From a bacterium (GTDB lineage: Bacteria > Chloroflexota > Chloroflexia > Chloroflexales > Kallotenuaceae), in assembly GCA_016781505.1 (NCBI GenBank), contig JADDQF010000154.1, positions 5,198 through 44,287 of the forward strand: a stretch of DNA of 39,090 nucleotides. Reading direction: 5' to 3'. The notes beneath the pieces were generated by a model. The model saw only the letters and a list, made by a program, of their open reading frames with translations. It did no database searches and was not told the DNA's origin. Shown piece by piece: positions 1,205-17,973 of the stretch; position 1 is the stretch's first letter; every line of letters begins with the position of its first letter. The position numbers and the translations under genes are program-made.

Positions 1205-2200
1205 TCAGGCCGCTGCTTTTCGCTTACCAGAGAGCTGATTTTGCAGCACGACGACCAACAAGAGAAACACACCGCGAATAACAGATTGCCAGTAGGCGCT
1301 AAGATTTTCAAAGCTAAGCATATTGATGATCAGGCCAAGCAATAGCACGCCGACAAAGGTGGTACCCACCGATCCGATTCCACCGGTAAGCAGCGTACCG
1401 CCCACCACCACCGCCGCGATTGCGGTAAGTTCCCAACCCAGTCCCTCGGTCGGAATCCCGGTATAGGTAAGGGCTGCCAAAATCGCGCCAGCCAGTGCCG
1501 CCAAGCCCCCACTCAGGGCATACACGCCAAGCTTGATGCGATCAACGGGTAAACCCATCAGTCGCGCCGCGTCCTCGTTGCCCCCGATGGCCAGTACATG
1601 CCGTCCGAAACGGGTGTAGTTGAGCACGATCGAGCCAAGCACGTACGCCACCAGCAGCATGATCACCGGAAAAGGTATGCCTAGCACACCATTAAGCCCG
1701 ATTTCAACGTAGCCGCCAGCCGTGTCGACGCTGACCGCTGCATTCTTCGCCAGCAGCAGCGCCGCTCCCCGAGCACCGAGGAGCATTGCCAGCGTGGTAA
1801 TAAACGGGGCGATATTAAAACGCGTAATCACCCAGCCATTAAACAAGCCAATCAGCAGACCAGTTCCAACCGCTGCCCCGACCGCCACTGTCGCACCATA
1901 CGGGCTGAGCAGCGCGGCAATCACACTTGCCAGCGCCGCCACAGCGCCGACGGACAAATCGATGCCGCCGGTCATGATCACAAAGGTCATACCCAGGGCA
2001 ATTAGTCCAAACATGGCGTTGTAGCGCAGTAACTCCACGATATTGTAGGTACTGATAAACCCGTTATAGCGCAGCGCGCCTATGCAGGTGAGCACAACCA
2101 ACGCTATCAGCGCTCCCTGCCGTTGGAGCATACTCCCGATCCGTGCTTCAGGAGCGGCAGGTGTTGCTGAACCAGCAGTTGATGACGGGATCGTTGCCAT
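1205..2200 (-). CDS. yjfF: Sugar ABC transporter permease, YjfF/RbsC type
   Basis: A 331-residue inner-membrane permease of the ribose/galactofuranose (CUT2) class. After a short polar N-terminus there are eight or more hydrophobic segments. The family signature TGGIDLSVGAV is followed by the cytoplasmic coupling loop RFGRHVLAIGGNEDAARLMG, which contacts the ATPase. A second conserved stretch, VVVGGTLLTGGIGSVGTTFVG, lies near the C-terminus. It is the last gene of the importer operon, 49 bases after the first permease, with AAGGA before its ATG. Two different permeases with a single double ATPase and one binding protein is the arrangement of E. coli YtfQ-YtfR-YtfT-YjfF (galactofuranose import). 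Which permease matches YjfF and which YtfT is assigned by gene order only. Confidence 0.75.
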   Translation of the reverse strand: MATIPSSTAGSATPAAPEARIGSMLQRQGALIALVVLTCIGALRYNGFISTYNIVELLRYNAMFGLIALGMTFVIMTGGIDLSVGAVAALASVIAALLSPYGATVAVGAAVGTGLLIGLFNGWVITRFNIAPFITTLAMLLGARGAALLLAKNAAVSVDTAGGYVEIGLNGVLGIPFPVIMLLVAYVLGSIVLNYTRFGRHVLAIGGNEDAARLMGLPVDRIKLGVYALSGGLAALAGAILAALTYTGIPTEGLGWELTAIAAVVVGGTLLTGGIGSVGTTFVGVLLLGLIINMLSFENLSAYWQSVIRGVFLLLVVVLQNQLSGKRKAAA

Positions 2201-2249
2201 AGTTTTTCCTTAACGTGATGACCACCCGAACCTCGGTCAGCCCTGCTGA

Positions 2250-3257
2250 TTACACCTTACGCTGCCGTTGGACATACACCGCCAGCAGAATGATTCCGGC
2301 GATAACAATCTGCGCCACAGCAAAGGGCACGCCCTTTGACAGCAGGGTAGAGCGAATCAGCTGAATAATTAAGGCGCCGATCAGTGTGCCACCAATTGTG
2401 GCTCGGCCACCGGTTAGGGGTGTTCCGCCCACTGCCACCGCCGCGATCGCATCCAACTCCATTCCTAGGCCGACACGATTAGCATCCGACGAGGAGTTGA
2501 TGGCGATCACAATCAAGCCAGCCAGTCCGGCCAGCAGACCGCTGATCACATACACCATCCGCTTAATGCGCGCAACCGGAACGCCGGCAAGACGTGCCGC
2601 CGGCTCGTTCCCACCGATGGCCAGCACATACCGACCAAAGATTGTCGCGCGCATCACCCACGCGGCGATCGCGACGATCACCAGCATCAGGATAACTTGA
2701 ACGGGAATGCCCAGTGGCCGGGCCAGGCCAATCACTTGAAAGGCCGGATTTTTGAAGTTCTGGATATTGCCGCTCGTGGCAACCTGGGCAATACCGCGCC
2801 CGCCTACATATAGAATCAGCGTCGCAATGATCGGCTGGATGCGAAAGGTGGTAACGAGCATTCCATTGAACAAGCCAAACAGGCCGGCCACCCCAATCGG
2901 AACCAACCAAGCCAGCACTGTTCCGAGCACGGGAATATTGAACAGGGGCAGGTTGCGGGAAAACAACATCGGTGCGAGCGCCCCTGCAATCGCCATAAGT
3001 GATCCAACCGACAGATCGATGCCACCCGTCGCAATCACCAACGTCATGCCTGTAGCGACAATAACCGTTGTTGCTACCTGCGTAAGGTTCAAATTCAATG
3101 CTGCCAGCGTGCGGAAACTCGGCGTAAACACGAGGTTGTACAGCACAAGCAGCAGCAGCACGGCTAGTGCTCCGTAGGTTTGCCCCACGGCACGGAAGCG
3201 CTCGGGTAGGGCGAAACGACGCTGGGGTAAGCCGGCTACCCGATCAAGCTTCGCCAT
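2250..3257 (-). CDS. ytfT: Sugar ABC transporter permease, YtfT/RbsC type
   Basis: A 335-residue CUT2-class permease that probably pairs with the neighbouring permease as a heterodimer. The start is placed at the ATG at 3257 (MAKLDRVAGLPQRRF) with AGGTGGG eight bases before it. This overlaps the end of the ATPase gene by 14 bases, which suggests translational coupling. Visible landmarks are ATGGIDLSVGSLMAI in the first half, the EAA-like coupling loop IFGRYVLAIGGNEPAARLAG in the middle, and VAVGGTPLTGGRATIGGTL towards the end. Many hydrophobic segments span the chain. A further upstream in-frame start at 3296 would lie deeper inside ytfR and has no better ribosome site. The sugar transported cannot be read from the permease. 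Confidence 0.75.
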   Translation of the reverse strand: MAKLDRVAGLPQRRFALPERFRAVGQTYGALAVLLLLVLYNLVFTPSFRTLAALNLNLTQVATTVIVATGMTLVIATGGIDLSVGSLMAIAGALAPMLFSRNLPLFNIPVLGTVLAWLVPIGVAGLFGLFNGMLVTTFRIQPIIATLILYVGGRGIAQVATSGNIQNFKNPAFQVIGLARPLGIPVQVILMLVIVAIAAWVMRATIFGRYVLAIGGNEPAARLAGVPVARIKRMVYVISGLLAGLAGLIVIAINSSSDANRVGLGMELDAIAAVAVGGTPLTGGRATIGGTLIGALIIQLIRSTLLSKGVPFAVAQIVIAGIILLAVYVQRQRKV

Positions 3258-4806
3258 GTCGTCCCACCTGTTGATCAGTCGTGGACTCGGCACCATGCGC
3301 CATTGCAGTCATGATTGCATCCTCGCTCAAATCAGCGTGGGCCAGCTCCGCTACTGCCTGGCCATCCCGCAGCACGACCACCCGATCACAGCCTTCGGTC
3401 AACTCTTCGAGCTCCGACGAGATCATCAGGACGCCCAGGCCACCCTCGGCGAGCTCGTTAATCAACGATTGAATCTCGCCTTTCGCGCCCACATCAATAC
3501 CACGGGTTGGCTCGTCCAAAATCAGCAGCCGCGGATTAAGACAGAGCCAGCGCGCCAGCAGCACCTTTTGTTGGTTTCCGCCGGACAGCTCGCGAATCTT
3601 TTGATCAGGACCAGCGGTTTTGATGCCCAGCCGTTTGATAAATTGCTCAACAATGGCTTGTTGCTTGTCCCGGGCCACGATACCGTTGCGCGCCAGTACA
3701 GGCAGTAGTGCGAGCGTTAAGTTCTCGCGAACCGACATATAGGGAATAATTCCCTCGGTTTTGCGGTCTTCCGAGCAAAATCCGATGCCAGCGTTGATCG
3801 CATCCGCGGGCGACTTGAAGACAACCTCGGCTCCATCCATCTGAATCTCACCAGCATCTATGGGATCGGCGCCAAAGATAGCGCGTGCCACCTCAGTGCG
3901 GCCTGAGCCAAGCAGCCCGGCAAGCCCAACGATCTCACCAGCACGGACATCAAGATCTACCCCGTGCAGCTTATGCCCGCTTTGCAACCCATGCGCAGTC
4001 AACAGCTCCTGCTTTGCCTGATGCGTCGCGGTTACGAAGCCGGTCGTGCCCAAACGGCGCACCTCGCCCAGCTCTTTGCCCAGCATCCGCGCGACCAGCT
4101 CAAGTTTGGTAATGCCGGCCATTGGCTTGTCGTCTACGGTTTGGCCGTCGCGCATAATCGTAACCCGGTCGCAGACCGCGTACAACTCGTCCAAGCGGTG
4201 GCTGACAAAAATAACCGAGACACCCTCTTGCTTAAGCTGGCGGATCACATCGAAGAGCGTAGCCACTTCCCGCTCGTCCAGTGACGACGTTGGCTCGTCC
4301 ATGATCACCAGCTTGCTGCGAAACGAAACCGCCCGGGCTATCGCCACCATTTGTTGGACCGCCACATTGAGCTGCAGCAGCGGCTGGGTTACGTCAACAC
4401 GAATCCCAAAGCGTTCAAGAATTGTGCTGGCTTCGGCATTCATCCGCCGCCAATCAATCAGGCCAAACCGACGGGGCTCACGACCCATAAAGATGTTTTC
4501 GCTGACTGAGCGAAACGGAACGAGGTTAACTTCCTGGTAGATGGTGCTTACACCCTGGGATTGGGCTTGTTGTGGTGACTGAAAATCGACGGCTTGGCCG
4601 TCAAAGATGATCGAACCGGCATCGCGGCGATACGCGCCGGTTAGGATCTTGATCATGGTCGATTTACCGGCGCCGTTTTGGCCAACTAATGCATGGACCT
4701 CGCCGCGCCCAACCCGGAGTGACGCGCCTTGCAACGCCAACACACCCGGAAATGTTTTCGTGATCCCTTCCATCAGCAACAGTGGTTCGGATTGGGCCAC
4801 AAGCAT
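3244..4806 (-). CDS. ytfR: Sugar ABC transporter double ATPase, YtfR-like
   Basis: A protein of about 520 residues with two fused ABC ATPase domains, the size and layout of RbsA/MglA/YtfR. Domain 1 has Walker A GQNGAGKST, the Q-loop in TIYQEVNLVP and Walker B LVIMDEPTSSLD. Domain 2 has a degenerate P-loop (GLLGSGRTE), signature LSGGNQQKVLLARWL and Walker B LLILDEPTRGIDVG. The stretch EVNLVPFRSVSENIFMGREP followed by RRFGL closely resembles E. coli YtfR as I recall it. It energises the two permeases encoded downstream. The start is ambiguous: ATG at 4806 has GAGG only one base upstream, while GTG at 4800 has the same GAGG at seven bases. A TTG at 4863 would place a 13-bp hairpin inside the gene and is unlikely. 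Confidence 0.85.
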   Translation of the reverse strand: MLVAQSEPLLLMEGITKTFPGVLALQGASLRVGRGEVHALVGQNGAGKSTMIKILTGAYRRDAGSIIFDGQAVDFQSPQQAQSQGVSTIYQEVNLVPFRSVSENIFMGREPRRFGLIDWRRMNAEASTILERFGIRVDVTQPLLQLNVAVQQMVAIARAVSFRSKLVIMDEPTSSLDEREVATLFDVIRQLKQEGVSVIFVSHRLDELYAVCDRVTIMRDGQTVDDKPMAGITKLELVARMLGKELGEVRRLGTTGFVTATHQAKQELLTAHGLQSGHKLHGVDLDVRAGEIVGLAGLLGSGRTEVARAIFGADPIDAGEIQMDGAEVVFKSPADAINAGIGFCSEDRKTEGIIPYMSVRENLTLALLPVLARNGIVARDKQQAIVEQFIKRLGIKTAGPDQKIRELSGGNQQKVLLARWLCLNPRLLILDEPTRGIDVGAKGEIQSLINELAEGGLGVLMISSELEELTEGCDRVVVLRDGQAVAELAHADLSEDAIMTAMAHGAESTTDQQVGRHGEA

Positions 4807-4824
4807 ACCTCGTGTGAATGCGGA

Positions 4825-4857
4825 AGGAGATGGACGAGCAATGTTCGTCCATCTCCT
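4825..4857 (-). promoter_or_regulatory. Intercistronic hairpin between ytfQ and ytfR
   Basis: Bases 4825-4837 and 4845-4857 form a perfect 13-bp stem with a 7-base loop. In the mRNA the hairpin begins about 25 bases after the ytfQ stop and ends about 20 bases before the ytfR start. Such hairpins after binding-protein genes commonly protect the upstream message from 3' exonucleases or partly terminate transcription, giving excess binding protein over membrane components. There is no T-tract after it. The role is inferred from position; the pairing is seen directly. Confidence 0.6.
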
Positions 4858-4881
4858 CGTCAAATACTTGCGCGTGCTGCG

Positions 4882-5997
4882 TTAGTACGCGTTGGCAATT
4901 TCAGTCGCGGCGTTGCTTGAGTCGAAGAACTTATCTGGATTGATCAGCTTGGCCGGCAACTGCTCGCCCTTAGCATAGCGCTCAAGCGCATCGAACGCGG
5001 CTGGTCCAAAGCGTGGGTTACATTCGACGGTCGCACCGAGTTTGCCGTCAATGATCGCTTGAAGCGCGTCGCGCGTGCCGTCGATCGAGACGATGATAAC
5101 ATCCTTACCTGGGACTTTTCCAGCCTGCTCCAAGGCCGCGATCGCGCCAATCGCCATCTCGTCGTTGTGGGCATACACCGCGGTCACATCAGGATGCGCT
5201 TGCAGCAGCGTTTCCATCGCCTGCCGACCCTTGTCGCGGTCGAAGTCGCCGCTCGGATCGGAGGCAAGGAGTTGCATGCCCGGCTGGCTCTTGATGGCGT
5301 CGTCAAAGCCCTTCTTTCGGTCGATAGCCGGAGACGAGCCCACGGTGCCTTCCAGCTGAATAATCTTGGCATTGCCACCAGTTGCCTTGATCAGCCATTC
5401 GGCTGCGCGCTTGCCTTCTTCAACAAAATCGGAGCCCATGAAGGCCACGTAGTCCTGGCCAGGCTTCGCCAACGATTGATCGACGTTGCGGTCGAGCAGG
5501 AACACGGGAATACCGGCAGCTTTGGCCTTGAGCACGGCTTGAGCCAGCGGCTTCTCGGACTTAGGCGCCAGGAAAATGGCATCGACTTTCTGGGCGATCA
5601 TGGTATCGACGTCGGCAATTTGCTTGGCTTCCGAGCCAGTGGCATCGGTATAAATAAGCTCGTAGCCACGCTTTGCGGCTTCAGCCTTCATGCTTTCCGA
5701 CTGCGCAATTCGCCAAGCGCCATTGCTTTCTACTTGGGCAAAGCCAACTTTGTACTTGTCTTTCTTGGTAACCTTCGGCAATCCACCACCAGCAGCGGCT
5801 TCTCCACCGGCAGCAGCACTTGCGGCGGTTCCACCAGCAGCAGCACTCGCGGTGGCTCCACCAGCAGCAACACTCGCCGCGGTACCAGCCGCACCGGTGC
5901 TATCGCCTGTACCAGTTGTGGGCGAACCGCAGCTGGCTAAAACAAGCATCGCGGCAACGACCATCAACACCAGGGCGAACGAACGACTCTGTTTCAC
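4882..5997 (-). CDS. ytfQ: Sugar-binding lipoprotein, YtfQ-like
   Basis: A 371-residue periplasmic-binding-protein family I lipoprotein. A GTG start at 5997 with AAGGAG upstream gives MKQSRSFALVLMVVAAMLVL followed by a lipobox ending in Cys23 (LASC). Residues of about 30-75 are a low-complexity Ala/Gly/Ser/Thr linker with imperfect repeats of the kind AAGGTAASAAAGG. The ligand domain begins KYKVGFAQVESNGAWRIAQ. AIDRKKGFDDAIK, the SGDFDRDKGRQAMETLLQ helix and VYAHNDEMAIGAI all closely resemble E. coli YtfQ, the galactofuranose-binding protein, as I recall it. It is the first gene of the importer operon and faces iclR across a shared regulatory region with a matched operator. The ligand is therefore probably a hexose in furanose form or a related sugar, but this is not proven. 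Confidence 0.85.
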   Translation of the reverse strand: MKQSRSFALVLMVVAAMLVLASCGSPTTGTGDSTGAAGTAASVAAGGATASAAAGGTAASAAAGGEAAAGGGLPKVTKKDKYKVGFAQVESNGAWRIAQSESMKAEAAKRGYELIYTDATGSEAKQIADVDTMIAQKVDAIFLAPKSEKPLAQAVLKAKAAGIPVFLLDRNVDQSLAKPGQDYVAFMGSDFVEEGKRAAEWLIKATGGNAKIIQLEGTVGSSPAIDRKKGFDDAIKSQPGMQLLASDPSGDFDRDKGRQAMETLLQAHPDVTAVYAHNDEMAIGAIAALEQAGKVPGKDVIIVSIDGTRDALQAIIDGKLGATVECNPRFGPAAFDALERYAKGEQLPAKLINPDKFFDSSNAATEIANAY

Positions 5998-6139
5998 GGT
6001 TGTTTCTCCTTTGAAAACCAACAATCGACGCCTCGAGGCACCCGCGACAGGGTACCTGCTCAGACCGGTAACACAACATGCGGCAAGCGGACAAAAAGAA
6101 CCGATGATTTATCCAACGGGGCTGTGGTGCATGGAGCAG

Positions 6140-6492: not shown

Positions 6493-7287
6493 ATGGCCGG
6501 TAATTCAAGCGTCGAGCGAGCGCTCGAGATACTCCAATACCTTTCGCGGCATTCCGGCCAGCATGGAGTTCGCAGCTTGGCTGCCGCGCTGGACCTCAGT
6601 CCGAGTACGGTGTTTCGGCTGCTTGAAACGCTGGAGCATGCCGGCTTTGTGCAACAAAACACGTTGACCGAAAAGTATGAGATTGGGGTCAAAGCCGTGC
6701 AGCTGGGCATTGCCGCGCTCGGCTCACTTGATCTCACTGCCGTAGCACCAGCCCGACTACGCACCTTGGTGAGCGAAACAGGTGAATCTGCATTTCTTGC
6801 CGTACGCGATGACACCGAGGTGGTGTATCTGCTCAAAGAAGAGGGGCGCTATTCGATCCGCACGACCGCCCTGCTTGGTACGCGCCGACCGTTACATTGC
6901 ACCGGACTCGGCAAATCATTTTTGGCGACCATACCACCAGCCGAGGCAGAGGAGGTATTGCGACGGGCCGGGATGGCGGCCCTCACAGCCAACACCATTA
7001 CCGATCTGGGTCACCTTTGGGAAGAGCTCGCATTGATAAGAGTGCGCGGGTATGCGACGGACCGTGAAGAAGTCGAGGAAGGCTTAGCATGTGTGGCCGC
7101 TCCCATTCGTGACTACCGTGGAGCAACCGTTGCAGCTGTGAGCATGGCTGGGCCTGTGGGCCGGATTTTGCCGCACGAAGAGCGTTTTGGCCGACGCGTG
7201 GCTGCAACCGCTCTGGAAATCTCGACTGTCCTCGGATACTTGCCGCGCTCCAATTCCCAAAGCATGGCCGCACTTCACGAGGTCTGA
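6493..7287 (+). CDS. IclR-family transcriptional regulator
   Basis: A 264-residue IclR regulator. The N-terminal winged helix-turn-helix (residues 5-65) begins SSVERALEILQYLS and includes the recognition segment LDLSPSTVFRLLETLEHAG. The C-terminal effector domain has the usual TGESAFLAV, LHCTGLGKSFLA and GLACVAAPIRDYRGATVAAV signatures. The length is typical of the family, and GGAG lies six bases before the ATG. It is divergent from the ytfQ importer and heads the enzyme genes 7474-16132, so it most probably controls both in response to a sugar acid or keto-deoxy intermediate. KdgR, the classical 2-keto-3-deoxygluconate sensor, belongs to this family, and the two operators here resemble KdgR sites. 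The ligand is unknown. Confidence 0.9.
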   Translation: MAGNSSVERALEILQYLSRHSGQHGVRSLAAALDLSPSTVFRLLETLEHAGFVQQNTLTEKYEIGVKAVQLGIAALGSLDLTAVAPARLRTLVSETGESAFLAVRDDTEVVYLLKEEGRYSIRTTALLGTRRPLHCTGLGKSFLATIPPAEAEEVLRRAGMAALTANTITDLGHLWEELALIRVRGYATDREEVEEGLACVAAPIRDYRGATVAAVSMAGPVGRILPHEERFGRRVAATALEISTVLGYLPRSNSQSMAALHEV

Positions 7288-7473
7288 GCTAGTGGACCGG
7301 CATGTACTGCGGCAGGAACGAGATGCATGGGCGATCATGCGTCCGTGTGGTGACTGCCGCATCGCACGGCCCGGCTTCTGATACACTGTGCAACACCAAA
7401 GACCAGCGGAGCCCGACGGTCCAGAACCGCGTGGTTGCTGCTGTTGGGCAGCGTTCATGACAAGGGAGAGCAG

Positions 7474-8235
7474 ATGAAGCTACAAGACCGTGTAGCCGTA
7501 ATCACTGGCGCCGGATCCGGTATTGGACAGGCGATGGCGCTGCAGTTTGCACGGGAAGGCGCCCGTATCTTGGCCGCGGACATTAACGGAGACGCGGCGC
7601 AGCAGACCGTCGGTATGGTCACGGATGCTGGAGGAACCTGCCAGTCATACCCAGTTGATGTGACTCAACCCGAGCAGGTCCGGGCCATGATTGACCAGGC
7701 CTTAGCAACCTATGGCCAACTTGATATATTGTGCAACAATGCCGGCATCGGCTCGACAACTGATGTGGTCGATTGCGAACCCGAGGACTGGGATCGCGTT
7801 ATGACAGTTAACGTTAAGAGTGTGTTTTTAGGCTGTAAATACGCGGTACCCCGTATGGTTCAGCAACAGCGGGGCGTGATCATCAATACCGCATCGGTAG
7901 CTGGCATGGTCGGGATCGTCAAACGGGCCGCGTACTGCGCGAGCAAGGGCGCAGTGATTGCGCTTACCCGTCAAGTAGCCGTGGAATATGTCAAGCAGGG
8001 TATTCGTGTGAACTGCTTGTGTCCTGGTACGGTGGACTCGCCCTGGGTCGAGCGGCTCTTGGCACAGGCCGACGACCGTGTCGCTGCTCGCCAAGCGTTG
8101 GAGGCGCGCCAACCGATGGGCCGCTTAGGCACGCCGGAGGAAGTAGCAGCGGCAGCGCTGTATCTCGCATCCGACGACGCAGCATTCATTACCGGCACAG
8201 GCCTGGTGCTCGATGGCGGTTGGACTGCTGCCTAA
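7474..8235 (+). CDS. NAD-dependent short-chain dehydrogenase, possibly for a 2-keto-3-deoxy sugar acid
   Basis: A 253-residue classical SDR. The Rossmann motif TGAGSGIG is at residues 11-18, and Asp36 at the end of the second strand favours NAD over NADP. NNAG is at 88-91 and the catalytic set is Ser141, Tyr154 and Lys158 (YCASK). The start at 7474 is chosen for the AAGGGAG just upstream; the frame runs open further back to 7435 without a better site. The C-terminal stretch RQPMGRLGTPEEVAA and the D-C-E-P-E-D-W segment recall 2-keto-3-deoxy-L-fuconate dehydrogenases and related sugar-acid SDRs. That fits an operon with an acid-sugar dehydratase and an aldehyde dehydrogenase. Substrate prediction within SDRs is weak, so a sugar (fucose-type) dehydrogenase role is also possible. 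Confidence 0.8.
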   Translation: MKLQDRVAVITGAGSGIGQAMALQFAREGARILAADINGDAAQQTVGMVTDAGGTCQSYPVDVTQPEQVRAMIDQALATYGQLDILCNNAGIGSTTDVVDCEPEDWDRVMTVNVKSVFLGCKYAVPRMVQQQRGVIINTASVAGMVGIVKRAAYCASKGAVIALTRQVAVEYVKQGIRVNCLCPGTVDSPWVERLLAQADDRVAARQALEARQPMGRLGTPEEVAAAALYLASDDAAFITGTGLVLDGGWTAA

Positions 8236-8276: not shown

Positions 8277-9797
8277 ATGGCTGCTGAAACACAGCGAGAT
8301 ACCTATCAGCTACTGATTGGCGGCGAGTGGCGCAGTGCCACCGGGGGCGGAATGCGGCCTGTGCTGAACCCGGCGACAGGTGAAGCGTTTGCGAACGTAC
8401 CCGAAGGCAGCCGCGAAGATGCACGGGCTGCCCTTGAAGCAGCGCAGGCTGCCCAGCCGGCTTGGGAAGCACTAACCGGGGTGCAGCGCGCCGACTACCT
8501 CAAGCGCATTGCCGAACTGATCCGCCAGGATGCCGAGCGTCTCGCCCGCATTGTCGTGCAGGAGCAGGGCAAGCCCCTGGTCGAGGCCCGCGGCGAGATC
8601 GCCGGATCGGCGGGCTTTTTTGATTACTTCACCTCGTTCGCCCGCGCGCCCATGGGCGAGATTATCCCGTCCGACAATGCCAACGAGGACATCTGGATCC
8701 GCAATGTGCCGTATGGTGTCGTGGTCGGCATCATTCCGTGGAACTACCCGGCCGCCCTCTTCGCTCGTAAAGTCGCGCCTGCGCTGATGGCCGGCAATAC
8801 CATCGTGATCAAGCCCCACGAAGACACGCCGCTAAGCTCGCTTGAGCTGGCAAAAATCGTCGAGGCGGCGGGCGTACCTCGCGGTGTAGTTAACGTCGTC
8901 ACGGGTGCCGGCCGGGAAGTCGGCGACGCGCTGGTGCGCGATCGCATCACCCAGCTCGTAACAGTGACGGGGTCGGTGCGGGCCGGGCAGGAAATTCTGG
9001 CAGCATCCGCCGAAAACATCACCGTTGTCTCGCTTGAGCTTGGCGGCAAAGCTCCGTTCATCGTGATGGACGATGCGAACCTGGAGCTTGCGGTGCGTAA
9101 CGCCCTGCACGCTCGCTTTGTGAACTGCGGCCAAGTCTGCACCTGCAACGAGCGCACCTACGTCCATCGCCGGGTCTATGATCAATTTTTGGAGCGCTAC
9201 GTCGCCATGGCGAGCAAGCTACGGCTCGGCAATCCCATGCGCACCGATATTGACCTGGGGCCTAAGGTGAACCAGGTCGAGGTCGAAAAGCTGGAGCGCA
9301 TGGTGGCCCGGGCACAGCAGCAGGGCGCTGAGATTGTGTTAGGCGGCAAGCGGCCGGAGGGCGCTGAATTTGAGCGCGGATTCTGGTACTCGCCCACCGT
9401 GTTAACCAACGTTCGCAACGACATGGAGATCATGCAGCAGGAAACGTTTGGCCCGATCTCGCCGGTTATGGCCTTTGACGACTTTGAGGAGGCCATCGCG
9501 CTGGCCAACGATACCCGCTACGGACTAAGCGCCTACCTTTTTACCAATGACCTGAAGCGCATGATGCGCGCCGTCCAGGCCGTGCGCTCCGGCGAAGTGT
9601 ATATCAACAAGATCGGACCCGAGCAGTTCCAGGGCTTCCACACCGGCTATGGACTGAGCGGCATGGGCGGCGACGACGGCCCCCATGGCTTCGATCATTA
9701 CTTCCGCAAAAAGACCATTTATGTCAACTATGGGGATGCGCAGCCAAGTGGATTAATGCCCTACGAGACAGCAGCAACCGACCTTCCACCGCAGTAG
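8277..9797 (+). CDS. AldA-like aldehyde dehydrogenase (lactaldehyde/glycolaldehyde/glyceraldehyde)
   Basis: A 506-residue NAD-dependent aldehyde dehydrogenase. Visible elements are PWN at 154-156, the general base Glu254 in LELGGK, and the nucleophile Cys288 in the N-C-G-Q-V-C segment. The region ELGGKAPFIVMDDANLELAV and the C-E-R-type segment after the nucleophile (CTCNERTYVHRRVYDQF) resemble E. coli AldA, which oxidises L-lactaldehyde and glycolaldehyde. The C-terminus is longer than AldA by an extra tail after YVNYGDAQPS. AAAGGAGG lies just before the ATG and the gene follows the SDR by 41 bases. In this operon it would oxidise the aldehyde half released from a keto-deoxy sugar acid, giving lactate, glycolate or glycerate. 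The last two enzymes of the cluster could use such products. Confidence 0.85.
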   Translation: MAAETQRDTYQLLIGGEWRSATGGGMRPVLNPATGEAFANVPEGSREDARAALEAAQAAQPAWEALTGVQRADYLKRIAELIRQDAERLARIVVQEQGKPLVEARGEIAGSAGFFDYFTSFARAPMGEIIPSDNANEDIWIRNVPYGVVVGIIPWNYPAALFARKVAPALMAGNTIVIKPHEDTPLSSLELAKIVEAAGVPRGVVNVVTGAGREVGDALVRDRITQLVTVTGSVRAGQEILAASAENITVVSLELGGKAPFIVMDDANLELAVRNALHARFVNCGQVCTCNERTYVHRRVYDQFLERYVAMASKLRLGNPMRTDIDLGPKVNQVEVEKLERMVARAQQQGAEIVLGGKRPEGAEFERGFWYSPTVLTNVRNDMEIMQQETFGPISPVMAFDDFEEAIALANDTRYGLSAYLFTNDLKRMMRAVQAVRSGEVYINKIGPEQFQGFHTGYGLSGMGGDDGPHGFDHYFRKKTIYVNYGDAQPSGLMPYETAATDLPPQ

Positions 9798-9927
9798 CCG
9801 CAACGACCGGGACCAGTGGCAGCTGAGAGTGGCTCGGAGCTCCACGTATGCTGTCGCTGGCCTATGCCGCATCATACGCTGTGGCTACGTGGGAACCAAG
9901 AAACGGAAAACGAAGAGGTTTTCGAGC

Positions 9928-12228
9928 ATGGACATATCAGCGAAGCAAGCACTCAAGGATATTCTCGGGCAGCAAACAACCGCTCTGTTGAGCCTGAATC
10001 CATACGAAGCCCGCACCGCTGCCGCCATTTTTGAGCGAATGTTTCCCCCTGACGAAAACGGGCCGGGCGCGATCGAGCTTGGCGTCGTCACCTACCTCGA
10101 CCGGGCACTGGCAGGTGCGTATCGCGACAAAGTTGAGATCTATCGCGTTGGGCTAGCCGCCCTGGATCAGGAGGCACGCCAACAGTATGACCGGCCGTTC
10201 GCCGATTGCAGCGAGCAGCAGCAAGATACCTTGATCGGCCAGCTCGAGCACGGCACACTGCCCGATTTTCAAGCACCGCCTCCGTTCGATTTTTTCAAGC
10301 TGCTGCGGATGCACCTCCAGGAGGGACTGTTTGCCGATCCAGCCTATGGCGGCAATCGCGACAAGCAGGGCTGGCGCTTTTTAGGCCACACCGGGGTCTG
10401 GTTTGAAAACTCCGCCGAGGAAAACCTGGCGACGGAGCCGGTAACCAAGGGTGGGGTGATACAGTCGCTCGCCGACGTGGGCTATTCTCTGGATGGCGGT
10501 CCGCGCGAACCGGTTGCACAGCCAGGATACGATCCCCAGCGGGGCGGGCAACCACCGGCCGGACCCGTCGACGTTGTGCTGGTTGGCGTTGGTGCAGCCG
10601 GGGCGCAAGCGGCGGCGATCCTGTGCCAGGCCGGGCTGCGGGTGGTTGGCTTGGAGGCTGGTCCATGGCGGACCAAGCGCGATTTCGTGCCCGACGAGCT
10701 GGGCTCGGCCTATTACACCCGCGGCAGCATGGGGCCCAAGTTCCTGAGCGAAACACCGCGCTGGCGCCGCAACGAAAACGAACCGACCCGCGAAGCTACC
10801 TTCACCCTTGGCCGCATGATGAACAGCGTAGGCGGCTCGGTGATCCATTGGGGCGGAGCGCTGCGCCGCTGCCACCCACACCACTTCAAGTTTCTGACAC
10901 ATATACGCGAGAACTTTGGCGAAAAGATTCTGCCGGCAGGCCACACGCTGGCCGACTGGCCCATCTCCTACGACGAGCTCGAGCCGTACTACACCGCTAT
11001 CGAATATCACATCGGTGTTGCCGGCGATGGCGCGCGCAATCCGTTCGTGCCGCGGAGCATGCCGCTCCCGATGCCGCCGCTGCGCAAATTTACCATGGCC
11101 GAGGTGTTTCGCACCGCGGGCGAACGCATGGGCCTTCACCCGTATCCAACGCCGGTCGCGGTTAACAGCGTGCCCTACAATGGCTTTCCCGCGACAACCT
11201 ATTGTGCCTGGAGTGGTGGCTTTGGCCCGTTCAACGACGAGCGGTGGCAGCCGGGCCTGACCTGGGTACCCCAAGCGCTGGCCACAGGCAACTTCGATCT
11301 GCGCACGCATTGCCGCGTGGTTCGCATACTCACCGACAAGGATGGCCATGCGAGCGGCGTTGAGTATGTGGACGCCAACGGCAACTGGCAAGTACAGGAA
11401 GCGCACACCGTGATTGTGTGCAGCTACACCTTTGAAAACGTGCGCCTGCTGCTGCTGTCGGGCGATTCTAAACATCCGAACGGTCTGGGCAACAACTCCG
11501 GCCAGGTCGGCAAGCACCTGATGAGCAAGCTGTGGTCGGATGTGTCCGGCTTCTTTCCCGATATCGTCTTCAACGCCCATACCGGCCCAGCCGCCCAAAT
11601 GTGGACCATCGACGACTTCCTTGCGGCGGATGTCGATTTTGGAGCGCTTGGCTTTGTGGGCGGTGCGGCGCCCAACATCGAAAACCAGCGGCTGCCGATT
11701 CAGATCAGCCGCGAAGCCTTGCCGCCGGATGTGCGCTGCTGGGGCAAGGAGTACAAAGATCATCTGCGGCAGTGGCAGCATATCGCGGCGGTACGGCTCC
11801 AGCCGGATACCCTGCCCTACCATGCCAACTACCTTGACCTCGATCCGCGCTATCGCGACCGGAGCGGGCTGGGATTACCGGTGCTGCGCATCACCTATGA
11901 TATGCAGCCAAACGAACACCGCCTGTCAGACTACATGGAGACCAAGGCCGAGGAAATTTTACGAGCGATGGGCGCAACAAAAAGCTGGCGCGGCCAACGC
12001 TTTGGCGGGGTGGTCAGCAGCCACGAGCTCGGCGGCTGCCGGATGGGCGAAGATCCGGCGCTGTCCGTGGTTGGCCCCGATCTCGCCGTCCATGATACGC
12101 CCGGCCTGTATGTTTTCGGTACGGCCGTCTTTCCTTCGTGTCATGGCGTTAATCCCACGCTCACCATGTTTGCGCTCTGCCAACGGGCTGCGGAACAGCT
12201 GGTGGAGCGTCTACGCACCGCGGCATAA
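9928..12228 (+). CDS. Fused gluconate-2-dehydrogenase subunit 3 / GMC oxidoreductase
   Basis: A 766-residue two-domain protein. Residues of about 20-160 resemble gluconate 2-dehydrogenase subunit 3: LSLNPYEARTAAAIFERMFP, then PFADCSEQQQDTLI, then LFADPAYGGNRDKQGWRFLG. Residues from about 213 form a GMC flavoprotein with the FAD-binding GVGAAG at 220-225. The C-terminal signature runs SHELGGCRMGEDP ... VFGTAVFPSCHGVNPTLT, with the usual catalytic His and Asn. In known membrane-bound sugar dehydrogenases the small subunit and flavoprotein are separate chains plus a cytochrome c subunit. Here they are fused, no cytochrome gene follows, and no Tat or Sec signal is visible, so it may be cytoplasmic with an unknown electron acceptor. 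Start ATG 9928 has GAAGAGG nine bases upstream. It probably oxidises a sugar or sugar acid. Confidence 0.85.
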   Translation: MDISAKQALKDILGQQTTALLSLNPYEARTAAAIFERMFPPDENGPGAIELGVVTYLDRALAGAYRDKVEIYRVGLAALDQEARQQYDRPFADCSEQQQDTLIGQLEHGTLPDFQAPPPFDFFKLLRMHLQEGLFADPAYGGNRDKQGWRFLGHTGVWFENSAEENLATEPVTKGGVIQSLADVGYSLDGGPREPVAQPGYDPQRGGQPPAGPVDVVLVGVGAAGAQAAAILCQAGLRVVGLEAGPWRTKRDFVPDELGSAYYTRGSMGPKFLSETPRWRRNENEPTREATFTLGRMMNSVGGSVIHWGGALRRCHPHHFKFLTHIRENFGEKILPAGHTLADWPISYDELEPYYTAIEYHIGVAGDGARNPFVPRSMPLPMPPLRKFTMAEVFRTAGERMGLHPYPTPVAVNSVPYNGFPATTYCAWSGGFGPFNDERWQPGLTWVPQALATGNFDLRTHCRVVRILTDKDGHASGVEYVDANGNWQVQEAHTVIVCSYTFENVRLLLLSGDSKHPNGLGNNSGQVGKHLMSKLWSDVSGFFPDIVFNAHTGPAAQMWTIDDFLAADVDFGALGFVGGAAPNIENQRLPIQISREALPPDVRCWGKEYKDHLRQWQHIAAVRLQPDTLPYHANYLDLDPRYRDRSGLGLPVLRITYDMQPNEHRLSDYMETKAEEILRAMGATKSWRGQRFGGVVSSHELGGCRMGEDPALSVVGPDLAVHDTPGLYVFGTAVFPSCHGVNPTLTMFALCQRAAEQLVERLRTAA

Positions 12229-12275
12229 GTATCGCCTGCTGTCGATACCTCCTAACGATGGAACAAGGAAGTGCA

Positions 12276-13358
12276 ATGAAAATAGAACGTATCGAGACCG
12301 CATATTACCGTTTGCCGTTGGAAGCCGTGGGCGATGCTGGCCACGGTCTGCTTGATTCGGAAGAGCTGATCACGCTCCGCCTCCATGCCGAAGGGCTGGA
12401 AGCGCACGGCTACACCTACACGATTGGCAAGGGTGGTCGCGCCGTGCAAGCCGTCATCGACCACGACCTGGCTCCGATTCTGGTTGGCCAGGACGCCAAT
12501 GATATTCAGCGCTTGTGGAACATGATGTGGCAGCGTTTGTTGTATGTCGGCCGCGGCGGGCTCGCGGCCTTTGCCATCGCCGCCGTCGATGTCGCGCTGT
12601 GGGATCTGCATGGCTTGCGCGACCAGAAGCCGCTGTACGCGCTGTTTGGAGCAGAAGCACGTGATATACCTGCTTACGGATCGGGCGTCGATCTGCCGAA
12701 ATCGCTGGACGATTTGTTGAAGCAGACCGAAAGCTTTATGGCGCGCGGCTTCCCCGGTGTCAAAGTCAAGATTGGCCGAATCGACCCTCAGGAAGACGAA
12801 GCGCGCGTCGGCGCCGTACGCAAGCTTATCGGCCCCGGCGTGGACTTGATGGTGGACGCGAACATGACCTGGACCACAGAACAAGCGTTGGAGCGTGGCC
12901 GCCGTTTGGAACAGTTCGGCCTGTACTGGTACGAAGAGCCTACGATCCCGGAAGATGTCAAGGGCCACGCCCGGCTGGCGCAGGAGCTTGATGTGCCGAT
13001 TGCGATTGGCGAAAGCCTCCATTCGCCCCACGAGTTTCAGCGCTATGTGGATGAAGGCGCCGTGGAGGTACTGCAGATCGATCCGATCACGAATGGCGGC
13101 ATTACCGCGTCCTTGAAAGCGCTCCAGATGGCGGATGCAGCAGGGCTAAAAACCAGCAGTCACTACACCGATGAGCTCAGCGCCCATCTATTGTCGGCTT
13201 CACGCAACGCCGTGTACCTGGAAAAACACGCCTTCGCGCTCGATCCATACCTCCAAGAGCCGCAGCGGGTGGTTAATGGCCATGTGCGCCCAACGGAAGT
13301 GCCGGGCACTGGCATGCGCTTTGATGAATCCGCTCTAGCGCCCTACCGCGACCGCTAG
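12276..13358 (+). CDS. Mandelate-racemase-subgroup enolase enzyme, probable acid-sugar dehydratase
   Basis: A 360-residue enolase-superfamily protein. The full mandelate racemase residue set is present: Lys163-x-Lys165 on the second barrel strand, metal ligands Asp194, Glu220 and Glu246, the Asp269/His296 dyad, and Glu316. These lie exactly one position before the residues numbered in the Pseudomonas putida enzyme. In this subgroup, enzymes with both KxK and the His-Asp dyad include racemases and sugar-acid dehydratases. The context (sugar importer, GMC dehydrogenase, keto-acid SDR, aldehyde dehydrogenase) favours dehydration of an aldonate or aldarate to a 2-keto-3-deoxy acid. The start at 12276 follows AAGGAAG. 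Exact stereochemistry and substrate cannot be inferred. Confidence 0.85.
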   Translation: MKIERIETAYYRLPLEAVGDAGHGLLDSEELITLRLHAEGLEAHGYTYTIGKGGRAVQAVIDHDLAPILVGQDANDIQRLWNMMWQRLLYVGRGGLAAFAIAAVDVALWDLHGLRDQKPLYALFGAEARDIPAYGSGVDLPKSLDDLLKQTESFMARGFPGVKVKIGRIDPQEDEARVGAVRKLIGPGVDLMVDANMTWTTEQALERGRRLEQFGLYWYEEPTIPEDVKGHARLAQELDVPIAIGESLHSPHEFQRYVDEGAVEVLQIDPITNGGITASLKALQMADAAGLKTSSHYTDELSAHLLSASRNAVYLEKHAFALDPYLQEPQRVVNGHVRPTEVPGTGMRFDESALAPYRDR

Positions 13359-13462: not shown

Positions 13463-14734
13463 ATGCAGGTATCGTTAGCATATGGGCGGGGGCGTATGAT
13501 GATCAACGTGCCCGACGATGCGGTTGTGATCACCCCCCAAGAGCTGCCGGGGCTGGCCGACGAGCACGCGGCCTTTGAGGCGGCCGTACGCAGTCCCATC
13601 CAAGCCACGCCACTTCGGGAGCAGGTAGCCGCCGATGCACGGGTGGCGATCGTGATCGCCGACATCACTCGGCCCTCGCCGAGCGAGCGCCTCGTGCCGT
13701 GGATTATGCAAGAGCTGGCGCATGTACCGCGGGAAAATTTTGTCATCATCAACGGGACGGGCTCGCACCGGGCTAATACCCAGGCCGAGCTGGTCCAGAT
13801 GCTGGGCGCGGAGGTCGTCGAAACGGTCCGGATCGTCAACCACAATGCCTTTGACGACGGCACGCTGACCCATCTGGGACGCACGAGCTACGGCGGCGAA
13901 ATCTGGGTCAACAACGAGTATCTCCAGGCGGATGTGCGCATCGTCACGGGCTTTATCGAGCCCCACTTCTTCGCCGGATTTAGTGGTGGGCCAAAAGGAA
14001 TTATTCCGGGTGTTGCCGGCATCAAAACCATTATGCACCTCCACAATGCGCAGATGATCGGCGATGAGCGCTCGACCTGGGCACGCTTGGAAGGCAACCC
14101 GGTGCAAGGCGAGATTCGTGAAGCCGTGGCTATGGCGCCGCCGCACTTCATAGTCAACGTGGCGGTTAATTCGCGGCGCGAGATCACGGCGGTCTGGGCC
14201 GGGCATTACATCGCCGCCCACGAAGTCGGCTGCCGCTTTGTGGCCCAACACGCCACCTGTCCCGTCGAAGCTGTTTTTGATGTTGTGGTGACCACCAACA
14301 GCGGCTACCCGCTGGACCAGAACTTGTATCAAGCCGTCAAAGGCATGAGCGCCGCGGCGCGTATCGTCAAGCCGGGCGGCGCGATCATCGCCGCCGCAGA
14401 ATGCAGCGATGGGCTGCCTAGTCACGGCAACTACAAAGACTTGCTCCAAATGCGCGAGTCGGCCCAAGCGCTTCTGGAAATGATTGAAGCGCCGGGCTTT
14501 GAAATGTACGACCAGTGGCAGGCGCAGTCGCAGGCGCTGGTGCAGCGCAAGGCCCAGGTGTATCTGCACTCGTCGCTCGACGCTGAGACAGTTCGGCAAG
14601 CAATGCTGGAGCCAGCTCCCGACATCGAAACAACCCTGGCGGAGCTAGTAGAGCGCTATGGGCCGGGAGCACGGGTAGCGGTGCTGCCCGAAGGACCGCA
14701 AACCGTGCCCTACGTAACCGAAGCTGTAGTCTAG
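13463..14734 (+). CDS. LarA-family nickel-pincer 2-hydroxyacid racemase/epimerase
   Basis: A 423-residue protein of the lactate racemase LarA family. The conserved residues of Lactobacillus plantarum LarA are all present at a constant offset: His102 (GTGSHR), His168 (EPHFFAGFSGG), Lys178 (GGPKGI, the lysine that carries the nickel-pincer nucleotide) and His194. AAGGAG precedes the ATG. The cofactor-making genes larB, larC and larE are not in the window. Known LarA homologues act on lactate, other short 2-hydroxyacids and D-gluconate. Between an acid-sugar dehydratase and a glycerate kinase, this one could epimerise a sugar acid at C2, interconvert lactate enantiomers made by the AldA-like enzyme, or racemise glycerate. 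Family assignment is firm; substrate is open. Confidence 0.85.
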   Translation: MQVSLAYGRGRMMINVPDDAVVITPQELPGLADEHAAFEAAVRSPIQATPLREQVAADARVAIVIADITRPSPSERLVPWIMQELAHVPRENFVIINGTGSHRANTQAELVQMLGAEVVETVRIVNHNAFDDGTLTHLGRTSYGGEIWVNNEYLQADVRIVTGFIEPHFFAGFSGGPKGIIPGVAGIKTIMHLHNAQMIGDERSTWARLEGNPVQGEIREAVAMAPPHFIVNVAVNSRREITAVWAGHYIAAHEVGCRFVAQHATCPVEAVFDVVVTTNSGYPLDQNLYQAVKGMSAAARIVKPGGAIIAAAECSDGLPSHGNYKDLLQMRESAQALLEMIEAPGFEMYDQWQAQSQALVQRKAQVYLHSSLDAETVRQAMLEPAPDIETTLAELVERYGPGARVAVLPEGPQTVPYVTEAVV

Positions 14735-14761
14735 ACGACGGTGCAGCTCCAAGGAGCCAGC

Positions 14762-16132
14762 ATGAATCCCGATGGCTTGCTGACGTATTCGCTGCGCGCG
14801 CATCCCCAAGGCGGCGCGCTTGTCGAGATCATGGCCGCAGCATTAGCAGCAGCCGATCCCCACGCAGCTGTACGGCGCTCGGTGCGCGTCGCCGACTCTG
14901 CAATCATGGTCGGTAGGCAGCGCTACGACCTGAGTGCTTCCAGCCGAGTCATCGTGGTTGGTGCCGGCAAAGCGGGCACACCGATGGCGGAGGCCGCGTA
15001 TGCGGCGCTCGGCGAGATCATCGCTGCGGGGCTGGTGGTGGTCAAGCAAGGGCATCTGGGGACAACGCATGGGCAGGTAGGTCCCATCACGCTGCTGGAA
15101 GCGAGCCATCCTGTGCCGGATGAGCGCGGCGTGAAGGCTGCTGAGCGGCTGATGGCGCTGCTGGAGAATCTCCGTCCCGCCGATCTGGTGCTGGTACTGC
15201 TATCGGGTGGAGGCTCTGCGCTGCTGACCCTGCCCGCGCCCGGCCTCTCCCTTGCCGACCTGCAAGGCCTGACCAGCGCCCTGCTGCGCTGTGGCGCGAC
15301 GATTGGCGAGATCAACACCCTGCGAAAACACTGCTCGCGCATTGCCGGTGGTCAGCTCGCGTTGCGCGCTAGCCCTGCCCGCGTCGCCACGCTGGTGATT
15401 TCGGATGTGATCGGCTCGCCGCTTGATGTGATTGCCTCGGGGCCGACCGTGCCCGATCCGACGACCTACGCCGACGCCTGGGCGTTGATCCAACGCTACC
15501 AGCTGGAGCAGACCGTACCTGCGCCAATTCTTCATCATTTGCAGGGTGGATTAGCAGGCGAGCTACCGGAAACACCCAAGGCCGATGCCTCATTGTGGCA
15601 GCGCGTGCACAACGAGGTGATCGCGAGCAACGTGTCTGCTGCCGAAGCAGCAGTTATGGCTGCTCAGGAAGGTGGTTTTCAAGCGCAGATTATGACAACT
15701 TTTTTGGAAGGCGAGGCCCGCGAGGTTGGACGGGTAGCCGCGGCGGTGGCGCGTGAGCTCGCACTGCGTGGCCAACCCTTTGGTCGCCCAGCGTTGATCA
15801 TTGCCGGTGGCGAGACGACCGTAACACTAGGGGGCGACGGCTTGGGCGGCCGCAATCAAGAGCTGGCCTTAGGAGCAGTCGCCGGTCTCGCAGGCCTACC
15901 CGATGCCGTGATCGTCGCGCTGGCAACCGATGGCGGGGACGGCCCTACCGACGCAGCGGGTGCCGTGGTTACCGGATCCACACTCCTACGGGCAAAGGAT
16001 CAGGGATTGGATCCAGCCCATTTTCTGCGGCACAATGATGCCTATCACTTCTTTGCTCCACTCGGCGATCTGCTACAGCCCGGCCCGACCCTCACCAATG
16101 TGAATGACCTGCTCTTTATTGCTGTCCCTTAG
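14762..16132 (+). CDS. Glycerate 2-kinase, class II (MOFRL family)
   Basis: A 456-residue protein of the GckA/TtuD glycerate kinase family, which phosphorylates D-glycerate to 2-phosphoglycerate and feeds lower glycolysis. Visible signatures are VIVVGAGKAGTPMAEA near residue 70, the Gly/Ser loop LLSGGGSALL, VISDVIGSPLDVIASGPTVP, and the C-terminal MOFRL domain with IAGGETTVTL and GGRNQELAL followed by ATDGGDGPTDAAGAVV. The start at 14762 (MNPDGLLTY) follows CAAGGAG; the frame extends 21 bases upstream without a better site. It is the last gene of the plus-strand operon, 27 bases after the LarA-like gene and before a strong hairpin. It suggests that one product of the pathway is glycerate, made from glyceraldehyde by the aldehyde dehydrogenase. 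Confidence 0.88.
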   Translation: MNPDGLLTYSLRAHPQGGALVEIMAAALAAADPHAAVRRSVRVADSAIMVGRQRYDLSASSRVIVVGAGKAGTPMAEAAYAALGEIIAAGLVVVKQGHLGTTHGQVGPITLLEASHPVPDERGVKAAERLMALLENLRPADLVLVLLSGGGSALLTLPAPGLSLADLQGLTSALLRCGATIGEINTLRKHCSRIAGGQLALRASPARVATLVISDVIGSPLDVIASGPTVPDPTTYADAWALIQRYQLEQTVPAPILHHLQGGLAGELPETPKADASLWQRVHNEVIASNVSAAEAAVMAAQEGGFQAQIMTTFLEGEAREVGRVAAAVARELALRGQPFGRPALIIAGGETTVTLGGDGLGGRNQELALGAVAGLAGLPDAVIVALATDGGDGPTDAAGAVVTGSTLLRAKDQGLDPAHFLRHNDAYHFFAPLGDLLQPGPTLTNVNDLLFIAVP

Positions 16133-16755: not shown

Positions 16756-17937
16756 TCATGGGTTACTCAGCAGGCTCAATCGCGCTTGCCACTCATCCGT
16801 GGCGAATGCGAGACGGCCACGACAAATGGTAGCCTGCAGCGCGAGTTCGTGATCAAGCAGCAGCAGGTCGGCATCGTAGCCGGGTTGCAGCAAGCCTTTG
16901 CGCGCTGCCACGCCCGCCGAGCAAGCCGGATTAATTGTCGCCATGCCGATGGCACTGGCCAGCGGCAGGTCGGTAAAGCGCAGCACATTGCGCAGGGCTT
17001 GCGCCATCGTCAGCACGCTTCCGGTAATCGTGCCGTCTTGAAGGCGGGCAACTCCCGCGACAACCTCGGCCGGTTGACCGCCAAAGGAAAAGCGGATATT
17101 ACCCATTCCGGCACAGGCCAGGGCATCCGTCACCAGCACAGTGCGCTGGGGTCCGAGGGCGCGCACCAGCACACGCGCGGCTGCTGGGTGTACATGCACG
17201 CCGTCGGCAATCAGCTCGCCTCGCACCTCGTCCGCCTCCACAATCGCGCCTAAGGGTCCTGGCTCGCGATGCAGCAGCGGCCGCATCGCATTGAAGCAGT
17301 GCGTCGCGTGCGTGATGCCGAGCTTGAGCGCCGCTTGCGCCTGCTCGTAGTTCACGTCGGTATGGCCGATGCTGATCGTCACACCTGCGGCCCGAAGCCG
17401 TTGCATTAGCGCTTCGGCGCCAAGCAGCTCGGGCGCCACGGTGATCAGCTTCAGGTAGCCTTGAGCTACATGGAGCAGCTCCTCCGTCTCCGATTCTGTG
17501 GGGGTTCGGAGCCACACTGGGTCATGGGCGCCGCGCCGCGCCACGCTTATGTACGGGCCTTCCAGGTGAATACCCAGCACTTCCGCGCCCGTCTCGTTTG
17601 ATTCAATCGCAGCGATCACCGACCGCATTTGCGCTCGCGGCAGGCCACCCGGCACGCCAACCACTCCAGCCAGAAACGAGGTAGTACCGGTGCTCGGAGC
17701 CCAATGCGCATACGCTGCAATATCGGCCGGATTTTCAGTATGGAGGTCGTGCATGCCGCCGCCATGCGTATGGACATCGACAAATCCCGGTGCGACGATC
17801 AGGCCGCCGACGTCGATGGAGGTGCTATCCGCAGGCAGCGCATCACCTACGATCCGCGAGTCCGCAAACGAGAGTGGAGAGTCCGCACGTTCGCCGGTGG
17901 CGTCGACCAGCCGACCGCCTGTGAGTGTCACCACCAT
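16756..17937 (-). CDS. nagA: N-acetylglucosamine-6-phosphate deacetylase
   Basis: A 393-residue amidohydrolase that converts GlcNAc-6-phosphate to glucosamine-6-phosphate and acetate in amino-sugar recycling. Metal and substrate residues of the family are present: His56-x-His58 (VDVHTHGGG), Glu126 in GIHLEGPY, His192 in IGHTD, His213 in THCFNAM, His248 in DGVHVHP, and catalytic Asp271 in LVTDALACAG. The usual TINPA motif is near the C-terminus. Start ATG 17937 has AAGGGGGG about ten bases upstream. It follows the SIS-family gene by 36 bases on the same strand, so the two are almost certainly co-transcribed and catalyse successive steps. Confidence 0.93.
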   Translation of the reverse strand: MVVTLTGGRLVDATGERADSPLSFADSRIVGDALPADSTSIDVGGLIVAPGFVDVHTHGGGMHDLHTENPADIAAYAHWAPSTGTTSFLAGVVGVPGGLPRAQMRSVIAAIESNETGAEVLGIHLEGPYISVARRGAHDPVWLRTPTESETEELLHVAQGYLKLITVAPELLGAEALMQRLRAAGVTISIGHTDVNYEQAQAALKLGITHATHCFNAMRPLLHREPGPLGAIVEADEVRGELIADGVHVHPAAARVLVRALGPQRTVLVTDALACAGMGNIRFSFGGQPAEVVAGVARLQDGTITGSVLTMAQALRNVLRFTDLPLASAIGMATINPACSAGVAARKGLLQPGYDADLLLLDHELALQATICRGRLAFATDEWQARLSLLSNP

Positions 17938-17973
17938 GGTCGATTGCCCCCCTTGTTTGGTTCACCCGTTTAG

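Follow-up and report, generated by a model that had tools for sequence, protein, structure and literature searches.

The Pfam family Gluconate_2-dh3 (PF13618) takes its name from gluconate 2-dehydrogenase, and in the classical complex of this enzyme the small subunit is a separate, exported protein, accompanied by a cytochrome. Pyranose 2-oxidases and C-glycoside oxidases are not known to have an Fe-S relay or a small-subunit domain. The closest described systems are three-subunit membrane FAD dehydrogenases, the FAD glucose dehydrogenase of Burkholderia cepacia (GDH; 6A2U, 8GRJ) and the fructose dehydrogenase of Gluconobacter (FDH; 8JEJ). In the catalytic subunit of Burkholderia GDH, a 3Fe-4S cluster bound by Cys212, Cys218 and Cys222 carries electrons away from FAD towards the heme subunit; FAD is covalently linked to His105, and His476 and Asn519 form the likely catalytic pair (PMC6719666). 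In the cytochrome subunit, the third heme adjoins this cluster (PMC9727119).

The window, i.e. the whole stretch of DNA analysed here (39,090 nucleotides, from a member of the Kallotenuaceae, Chloroflexota), contains one gene in which the small subunit and the flavoprotein appeared to be joined. Its features are the following.

9928..12228, + strand: fused gene, Gluconate_2-dh3 plus GMC FAD oxidoreductase, 766 aa (translation, Pfam)
9913..9918, + strand: Shine-Dalgarno-like AAGAGG, 9 bases 5' of the ATG at 9928 (sequence reading)
10003..10395, + strand: Gluconate_2-dh3 (small-subunit) domain, residues 26-156, helical (PF13618)
10396..10566, + strand: inter-domain linker, residues 157-213, with low model confidence in part (Pfam bounds, AlphaFold2 model)
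10567..12225, + strand: GMC flavoprotein part, residues 214-766 (Pfam, alignment, structure comparison)
10846..10848, + strand: H307, matching the FAD-linked His105 of Burkholderia GDH (alignment; role from PMC6719666)
11182..11247, + strand: former 3Fe-4S loop, residues 419-440, with T423, S429 and P434 at the ligand positions and no Cys (alignment; ligand roles from PMC6719666)
12022..12024, + strand: H699, catalytic His of the His/Asn pair, equivalent to His476 of Burkholderia GDH (alignment; PMC6719666)
12151..12153, + strand: N742, catalytic Asn of the same pair, equivalent to Asn519 of Burkholderia GDH (alignment; PMC6719666)

The frame at 9928-12228 (+) has no internal stops, and it extends upstream of the ATG to a GTG at 9829. 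The original prediction held that a small subunit is followed by a complete GMC flavoprotein in one chain, and the Pfam search proposed with it confirmed this, with the coordinates, strand and frame correct. All three domains scored above their curated cut-offs in the single 766-aa product: PF13618 (E 2e-28, 99.8 bits versus a cut-off of 23.4), GMC_oxred_N at residues 347-523 (47.5 bits versus 23) and GMC_oxred_C at residues 642-750 (67.9 bits versus 24.6). In the source genome (96% complete), the fused gene is the only match to PF13618 and the only match to GMC_oxred_N. Among the 31 rows of alignment A2, PF13618 was found in 20 (all 14 fused members and 6 small-only rows) and GMC_oxred_C in 25 (all 14 fused members and 11 GMC-only rows). 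A frame-shift or gene-calling artefact was rejected because the one-chain arrangement is repeated in 18 full-length members. The search against PHROGs gave no match, the terminator scan gave a count no higher than chance, and the promoter scan (7 promoter-like sites versus 3.6 expected) was not used. No description of such a PF13618-GMC fusion was found in the open-access literature, a search outside which most subscription papers fall; the small domain is named in PMC10924467.

The full-length AlphaFold2 model had a mean pLDDT of 87.7 and a pTM of 0.89. The nearest solved folds of the GMC part, which is about 26% identical to them, were the catalytic subunits of FDH (8jej_A; Z 41.0, rmsd 3.4, 517 residues aligned) and Burkholderia GDH (6a2u_B; Z 36.5, rmsd 2.9, 502 residues aligned). 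Pyranose 2-oxidases and C-glycoside oxidases (7QF8, 7DVE, 8QVE) came next, sharing the GMC fold with a Z of about 32 and 16-23% identity. Modelled alone, the small domain reached a pLDDT of 85.2. For this domain, no PDB match was found at E 0.01 with a 17-row profile (alignment A3), no Foldseek match at E 0.001, and no Z of at least 5 among the chains compared with VIA-align 2. The PF13618 family, as represented by this alignment, may thus lack a solved structure.

Like Burkholderia GDH and Gluconobacter FDH, the fused enzyme has the His/Asn pair, the position of the flavin-linking His and a small-subunit partner; the flavin-linking His and the catalytic pair were present in all 16 aligned fused rows. 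Unlike these enzymes, it has its small partner fused and lacks the three 3Fe-4S cysteines, a Tat signal and a linked cytochrome. None of the three ligand positions was occupied by Cys in any of the 16 fused rows, nor in the fused members L159 and L160 (18 full-length clade members out of 18), and the ligand positions of a fragment, L157, were also non-Cys. All three cysteines were kept in 44 of the 50 other distinct family rows, a count made by eye that excludes L070, L155, L097, L098 and four repeats. The widened alignment brought in 22 rows, not all of which could be assigned as fused or separate. The six exceptions outside the fused clade had lost one cysteine (L086, L056), two (L134, L136) or all three (L130, L156), so that the cluster can also be lost without this fusion, and L130, L156, L134 and L136 rule out that its loss is exclusive to fusion. 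For L130 and L156, the small-domain profile detected a separate small subunit. The profile gave no match at L134 and L136; at L136, a separate small subunit is likely, since residues 24-762 of the query aligned across one stop. The L156 gene (7050-9381, - strand), devoid of all three cysteines although not fused, shares its genome with the fused member L149.

The original prediction also stated that the protein has no signal sequence and that no cytochrome subunit gene accompanies it, and both statements held. No recognisable export signal was seen at the ATG (9928) or the GTG (9829) by inspection, and in the pattern test the protein showed neither an RR motif nor a strong hydrophobic stretch. 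Moreover, no Tat-like signal was found at the plausible starts of any fused row, as judged by pattern and hydropathy rather than by a trained predictor. Tat-like signals were observed on six separate small subunits (L071, L072, L078, L079, L080 and L086), as well as on those of L127 and L128; other RR pattern matches, which lay upstream of plausible starts or had no hydrophobic stretch, were not counted. In the window, no plausible c-type cytochrome gene was found, the sole CxxCH in a frame of at least 80 codons lying at 2790 (-) in an unrelated frame. Four cytochrome-c domain matches were found in the genome (96% complete), all of them away from the fused gene and spread over three places. 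By ORF reading, two of these places correspond to a CopC/CopD-like protein and a Rieske/cytochrome b cluster, and the third is beside a sugar-dehydrogenase-like beta-propeller; none of the matches was recognised as a cytochrome subunit of the gluconate dehydrogenase type. Across the 14 fused-clade loci, the small CxxCH ORFs observed were limited to two, one at L032 (14677-14979) and one at L033, antisense to the fused gene.

The closest separate-gene relatives, L075-L078, are 45-49% identical to the window protein in the GMC part, and their small-subunit gene adjoins or overlaps the GMC gene. They resemble the fused enzyme in having no CxxCH ORF in the stretch, and differ from it in being two genes and in keeping the three ligand cysteines. 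Three of them (L075, L076 and L077) also lack a Tat motif. Since these separate-gene neighbours already lack both signal and linked cytochrome, the fusion cannot be what removed them; and since they still keep the cysteines, the cluster can serve other partners. In L075, one frame (9544-10953, - strand) just upstream of the GMC gene, and overlapping it, combines a DHDPS-family domain with a Gluconate_2-dh3 small subunit; an assembly or annotation error is possible.

In trees built with the columns of the 3Fe-4S loop left out, the fused clade was monophyletic, with an SH-aLRT of 99 (16 of 48 rows), with 100/100 in a careful search (15 of 28 rows) and with 99 (16 of 70 rows), and it nests among separate-gene relatives that retain the ligand cysteines. 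Its nearest neighbours, L075-L078 and L150 (separate genes) and L070 (fused), all keep the cysteines, and a tree joining L070 to the fused clade was not rejected (p-AU 0.2). Because L070 is fused, retains its cysteines and can be joined to the clade in this way, fusion may have come first and cluster loss later. L070 (8016-10280, + strand), on a plasmid of Lichenicola cladoniae and about 38% identical to the window protein, is a possible intermediate between the separate genes and the cluster-less clade. An additional fusion, placed elsewhere in the tree, was found in L155 (7589-9850, - strand), from a Herpetosiphonaceae MAG: it is a second, distant fusion (about 30% identical) in the genome of L031, and, unlike the window protein, it keeps the Fe-S cysteines, as does L070. 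The same three Pfam domains thus occur in one chain in L070 and L155, which are sugar-dehydrogenase-like, and in L092, L093, L095 and L097, proteins of about 670-730 aa from another GMC subfamily, whose N-terminal PF13618 match is weaker but above the cut-off. Fusion as such is therefore not unique to the clade, but where it occurs elsewhere, either the cysteines are still in place or the protein falls in that other subfamily.

To follow the spread of the fusion, we carried out the survey proposed with the prediction in three phyla. In the window's phylum, 4 of 400 genomes (its own included) have a full-length fused gene; the figures are 7 of 396 for the phylum of the Rubrobacteraceae record and 3 of 298 for that of the Gemmatimonadetes record, with a fused-gene fragment in each of two further genomes (G053 and G672). 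Members from named sources include those of a Herpetosiphonaceae MAG (L031, 82% identity), a Gemmatimonadetes MAG (80%) and a Rubrobacteraceae MAG (74%); the member on a plasmid of Arthrobacter sp. StoSoilB3 was 48% identical. Across the phyla, many members share 67 to 82% identity, and the identity between phyla, together with the patchy distribution, suggests horizontal transfer of the fused gene. The fused member L149 sits on a contig of 4.4 Mb, so that MAG contamination is no explanation for this distribution.

The genes around the fused gene are the following.

1205..6024, - strand: sugar ABC transporter, with two permeases, an ATPase and a substrate-binding protein (profile matches)
6493..7287, + strand: IclR-family regulator (Pfam)
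7435..8235, + strand: short-chain dehydrogenase, SDR (profile matches)
8277..9797, + strand: aldehyde dehydrogenase, AldA type (NF007497/PRK10090 over cut-off; nearest solved relatives are aldehyde dehydrogenase A)
12258..13358, + strand: mandelate-racemase/enolase-family (MR_MLE) enzyme, 29 bases 3' of the fused gene (profile matches)
13463..14734, + strand: nickel-dependent 2-hydroxyacid racemase, LarA family (NF033504 over cut-off)
14741..16132, + strand: glycerate 2-kinase-like protein, DUF4147 plus MOFRL, 6 bases 3' of LarA (profile matches)

The best solved relatives of the ABC binding protein are the furanose-binding proteins YtfQ and GafA, which bind galacto- and arabinofuranose (PMC10191376). 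The MR_MLE protein, a probable acid-sugar dehydratase or cycloisomerase judging from its matches, is nearest to 2OVL and to the 3,6-anhydro-L-galactonate cycloisomerase 5XD7. The LarA and glycerate 2-kinase-like genes (13463-16132, +), only six bases apart, suggest that a 2-hydroxyacid is racemised and then phosphorylated. Farther along, on the opposite strand, a NagA-like deacetylase and a NagB-II/GlmS-like isomerase (16756-19008, -) form an amino-sugar module.

Among the 14 fused-clade loci compared, several of which are cut by contig ends (L154, from the same record as L031, was left out), an MR_MLE gene was present in 10 (8 of the window's type and 2 of another), an aldehyde dehydrogenase gene in 9 and transporter parts in 6. 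Two MR_MLE subfamilies, about 31% identical to each other, partner the same fused enzyme, one in the window (12258-13358) and the other in L031 and L032. LarA was also found at L032 and L033, as well as, together with an FAA hydrolase, beside the fused gene of L159 and L160; an FAA hydrolase is carried by L032, too. At L149, L144 and L142, the fused gene lies near arabinofuranosidase or GH2 genes. Deeper members of the clade, namely L069 (Arthrobacter plasmid), L073 and L074, occur in other neighbourhoods, so that no single pathway fits all members. Overall, the fused gene lies in a predicted sugar-acid operon that is common to three phyla. From this context, the putative substrate is an aldose in its furanose form that would be oxidised without being phosphorylated, but the MR_MLE matches (2OVL, 5XD7) do not single it out.

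Taken together, the fused protein presents a GMC part with the His/Asn pair and the flavin-linking His, and a small subunit in the form of the N-terminal PF13618 domain that it has in common with gluconate 2-dehydrogenase; the cluster cysteines, the twin-arginine signal (by pattern only) and a linked multiheme cytochrome c are missing, though a remote cytochrome partner is conceivable. We did not file it among the membrane FAD dehydrogenase complexes because of these three absences; in its working it would resemble the membrane FAD sugar dehydrogenases, but as a single chain and without the relay. The product is probably a cytoplasmic, relay-less, single-chain FAD sugar oxidoreductase, a reading that we hold with fair confidence and in which substrate and acceptor are the inferred parts. 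The strongest evidence for it is the loss of the cysteines, which weighs far more than the missing signal or cytochrome, and which also strengthens the suggestion, made in the original prediction and supported here by inference, that the enzyme works in the cytoplasm with a different electron acceptor.

As to this acceptor, the enzyme could be a true oxidase, in which reduced flavin and O2 yield H2O2 as in pyranose 2-oxidase and bacterial C-glycoside oxidases; we give this a substantial, though minority, probability. The absence of the relay cysteines, the retained flavin-linking His and the place of these oxidases as nearest folds after the fructose and glucose dehydrogenases are consistent with it, but Z values of about 32 are typical for the whole GMC fold, the pyranose oxidase model TIGR02462 scored 35 bits against a cut-off of 544.9, and a sequence does not reveal whether an enzyme acts as an oxidase.

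We give the same probability to a dehydrogenase that works in the cytoplasm and, like choline dehydrogenase, delivers its electrons to a membrane quinone or to some other diffusible carrier. The Rieske/cytochrome b complex of the genome makes a quinone pool likely, and saving electrons would pay in a catabolic operon; against this, no membrane anchor was seen at the N terminus, the part inspected for one, and the betA models scored far below cut-off. Among diffusible carriers, mycofactocin was unsupported: the model of the mycofactocin dehydrogenase MftG, TIGR03970, gave 54.7 bits against a cut-off of 387.45, and that of the mycofactocin maturase (rSAM), TIGR03962, exceeded its cut-off in none of the 13 fused-gene genomes.

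That the enzyme is still periplasmic and cytochrome-linked, exported by an unseen partner and with FAD handing its electrons straight to a cytochrome c encoded in the genome, is improbable. The four cytochrome-c domain matches would allow for it, but they are remote from the gene and of other kinds, no signal is present and the cluster-binding loop has been rewritten. A non-catalytic or degenerate remnant, which the lost cysteines could suggest, is hardly credible given the identity kept by many members across phyla, the conserved operon position, and the catalytic and flavin-linking residues found in every fused row examined.

For the cytoplasmic single-chain oxidoreductase, the following route can be proposed. 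A sugar or sugar derivative would be imported via the adjacent furanose-type ABC transporter and oxidised on FAD, and the reduced FAD would be reoxidised by a small acceptor such as O2 or a quinone, with no Fe-S cluster leading to a periplasmic cytochrome c in between. The product would then be processed by enzymes encoded nearby, namely the MR_MLE dehydratase or cycloisomerase, the aldehyde dehydrogenase, LarA and the glycerate kinase. The small domain, once a partner in export, was probably retained within the chain to assist folding or to serve as a lid. The probable ancestors of the fused clade are separate-gene forms that were already cytoplasmic and still had the cluster; the clade would later have spread horizontally among Chloroflexota, Actinomycetota and Gemmatimonadota.

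More broadly, and only tentatively as a whole, a membrane respiratory dehydrogenase may have been rebuilt as a soluble, cytoplasmic, one-protein sugar oxidase. Its export-chaperone subunit would have become a domain, and the cluster, the cytochrome dock and the signal would have been lost. The enzyme would serve a new non-phosphorylating route for sugar acids, carried between three phyla in the form of an operon, with the signal-less, cluster-keeping separate-gene relatives as preserved steps, although we consider this full scenario doubtful. FAD glucose and fructose dehydrogenases are used in biosensors, and their 3Fe-4S cluster and cytochrome decide how electrons exit from the flavin. A natural clade that has kept the active site, dropped the ligands, linked cytochrome and signal, and fused the small subunit allows the purpose of each part to be tested directly. 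As separate-gene relatives exist with and without the signal, the cluster cysteines and the cytochrome, the order of loss can be studied, and the fused clade is a possible source of simple one-chain enzymes.
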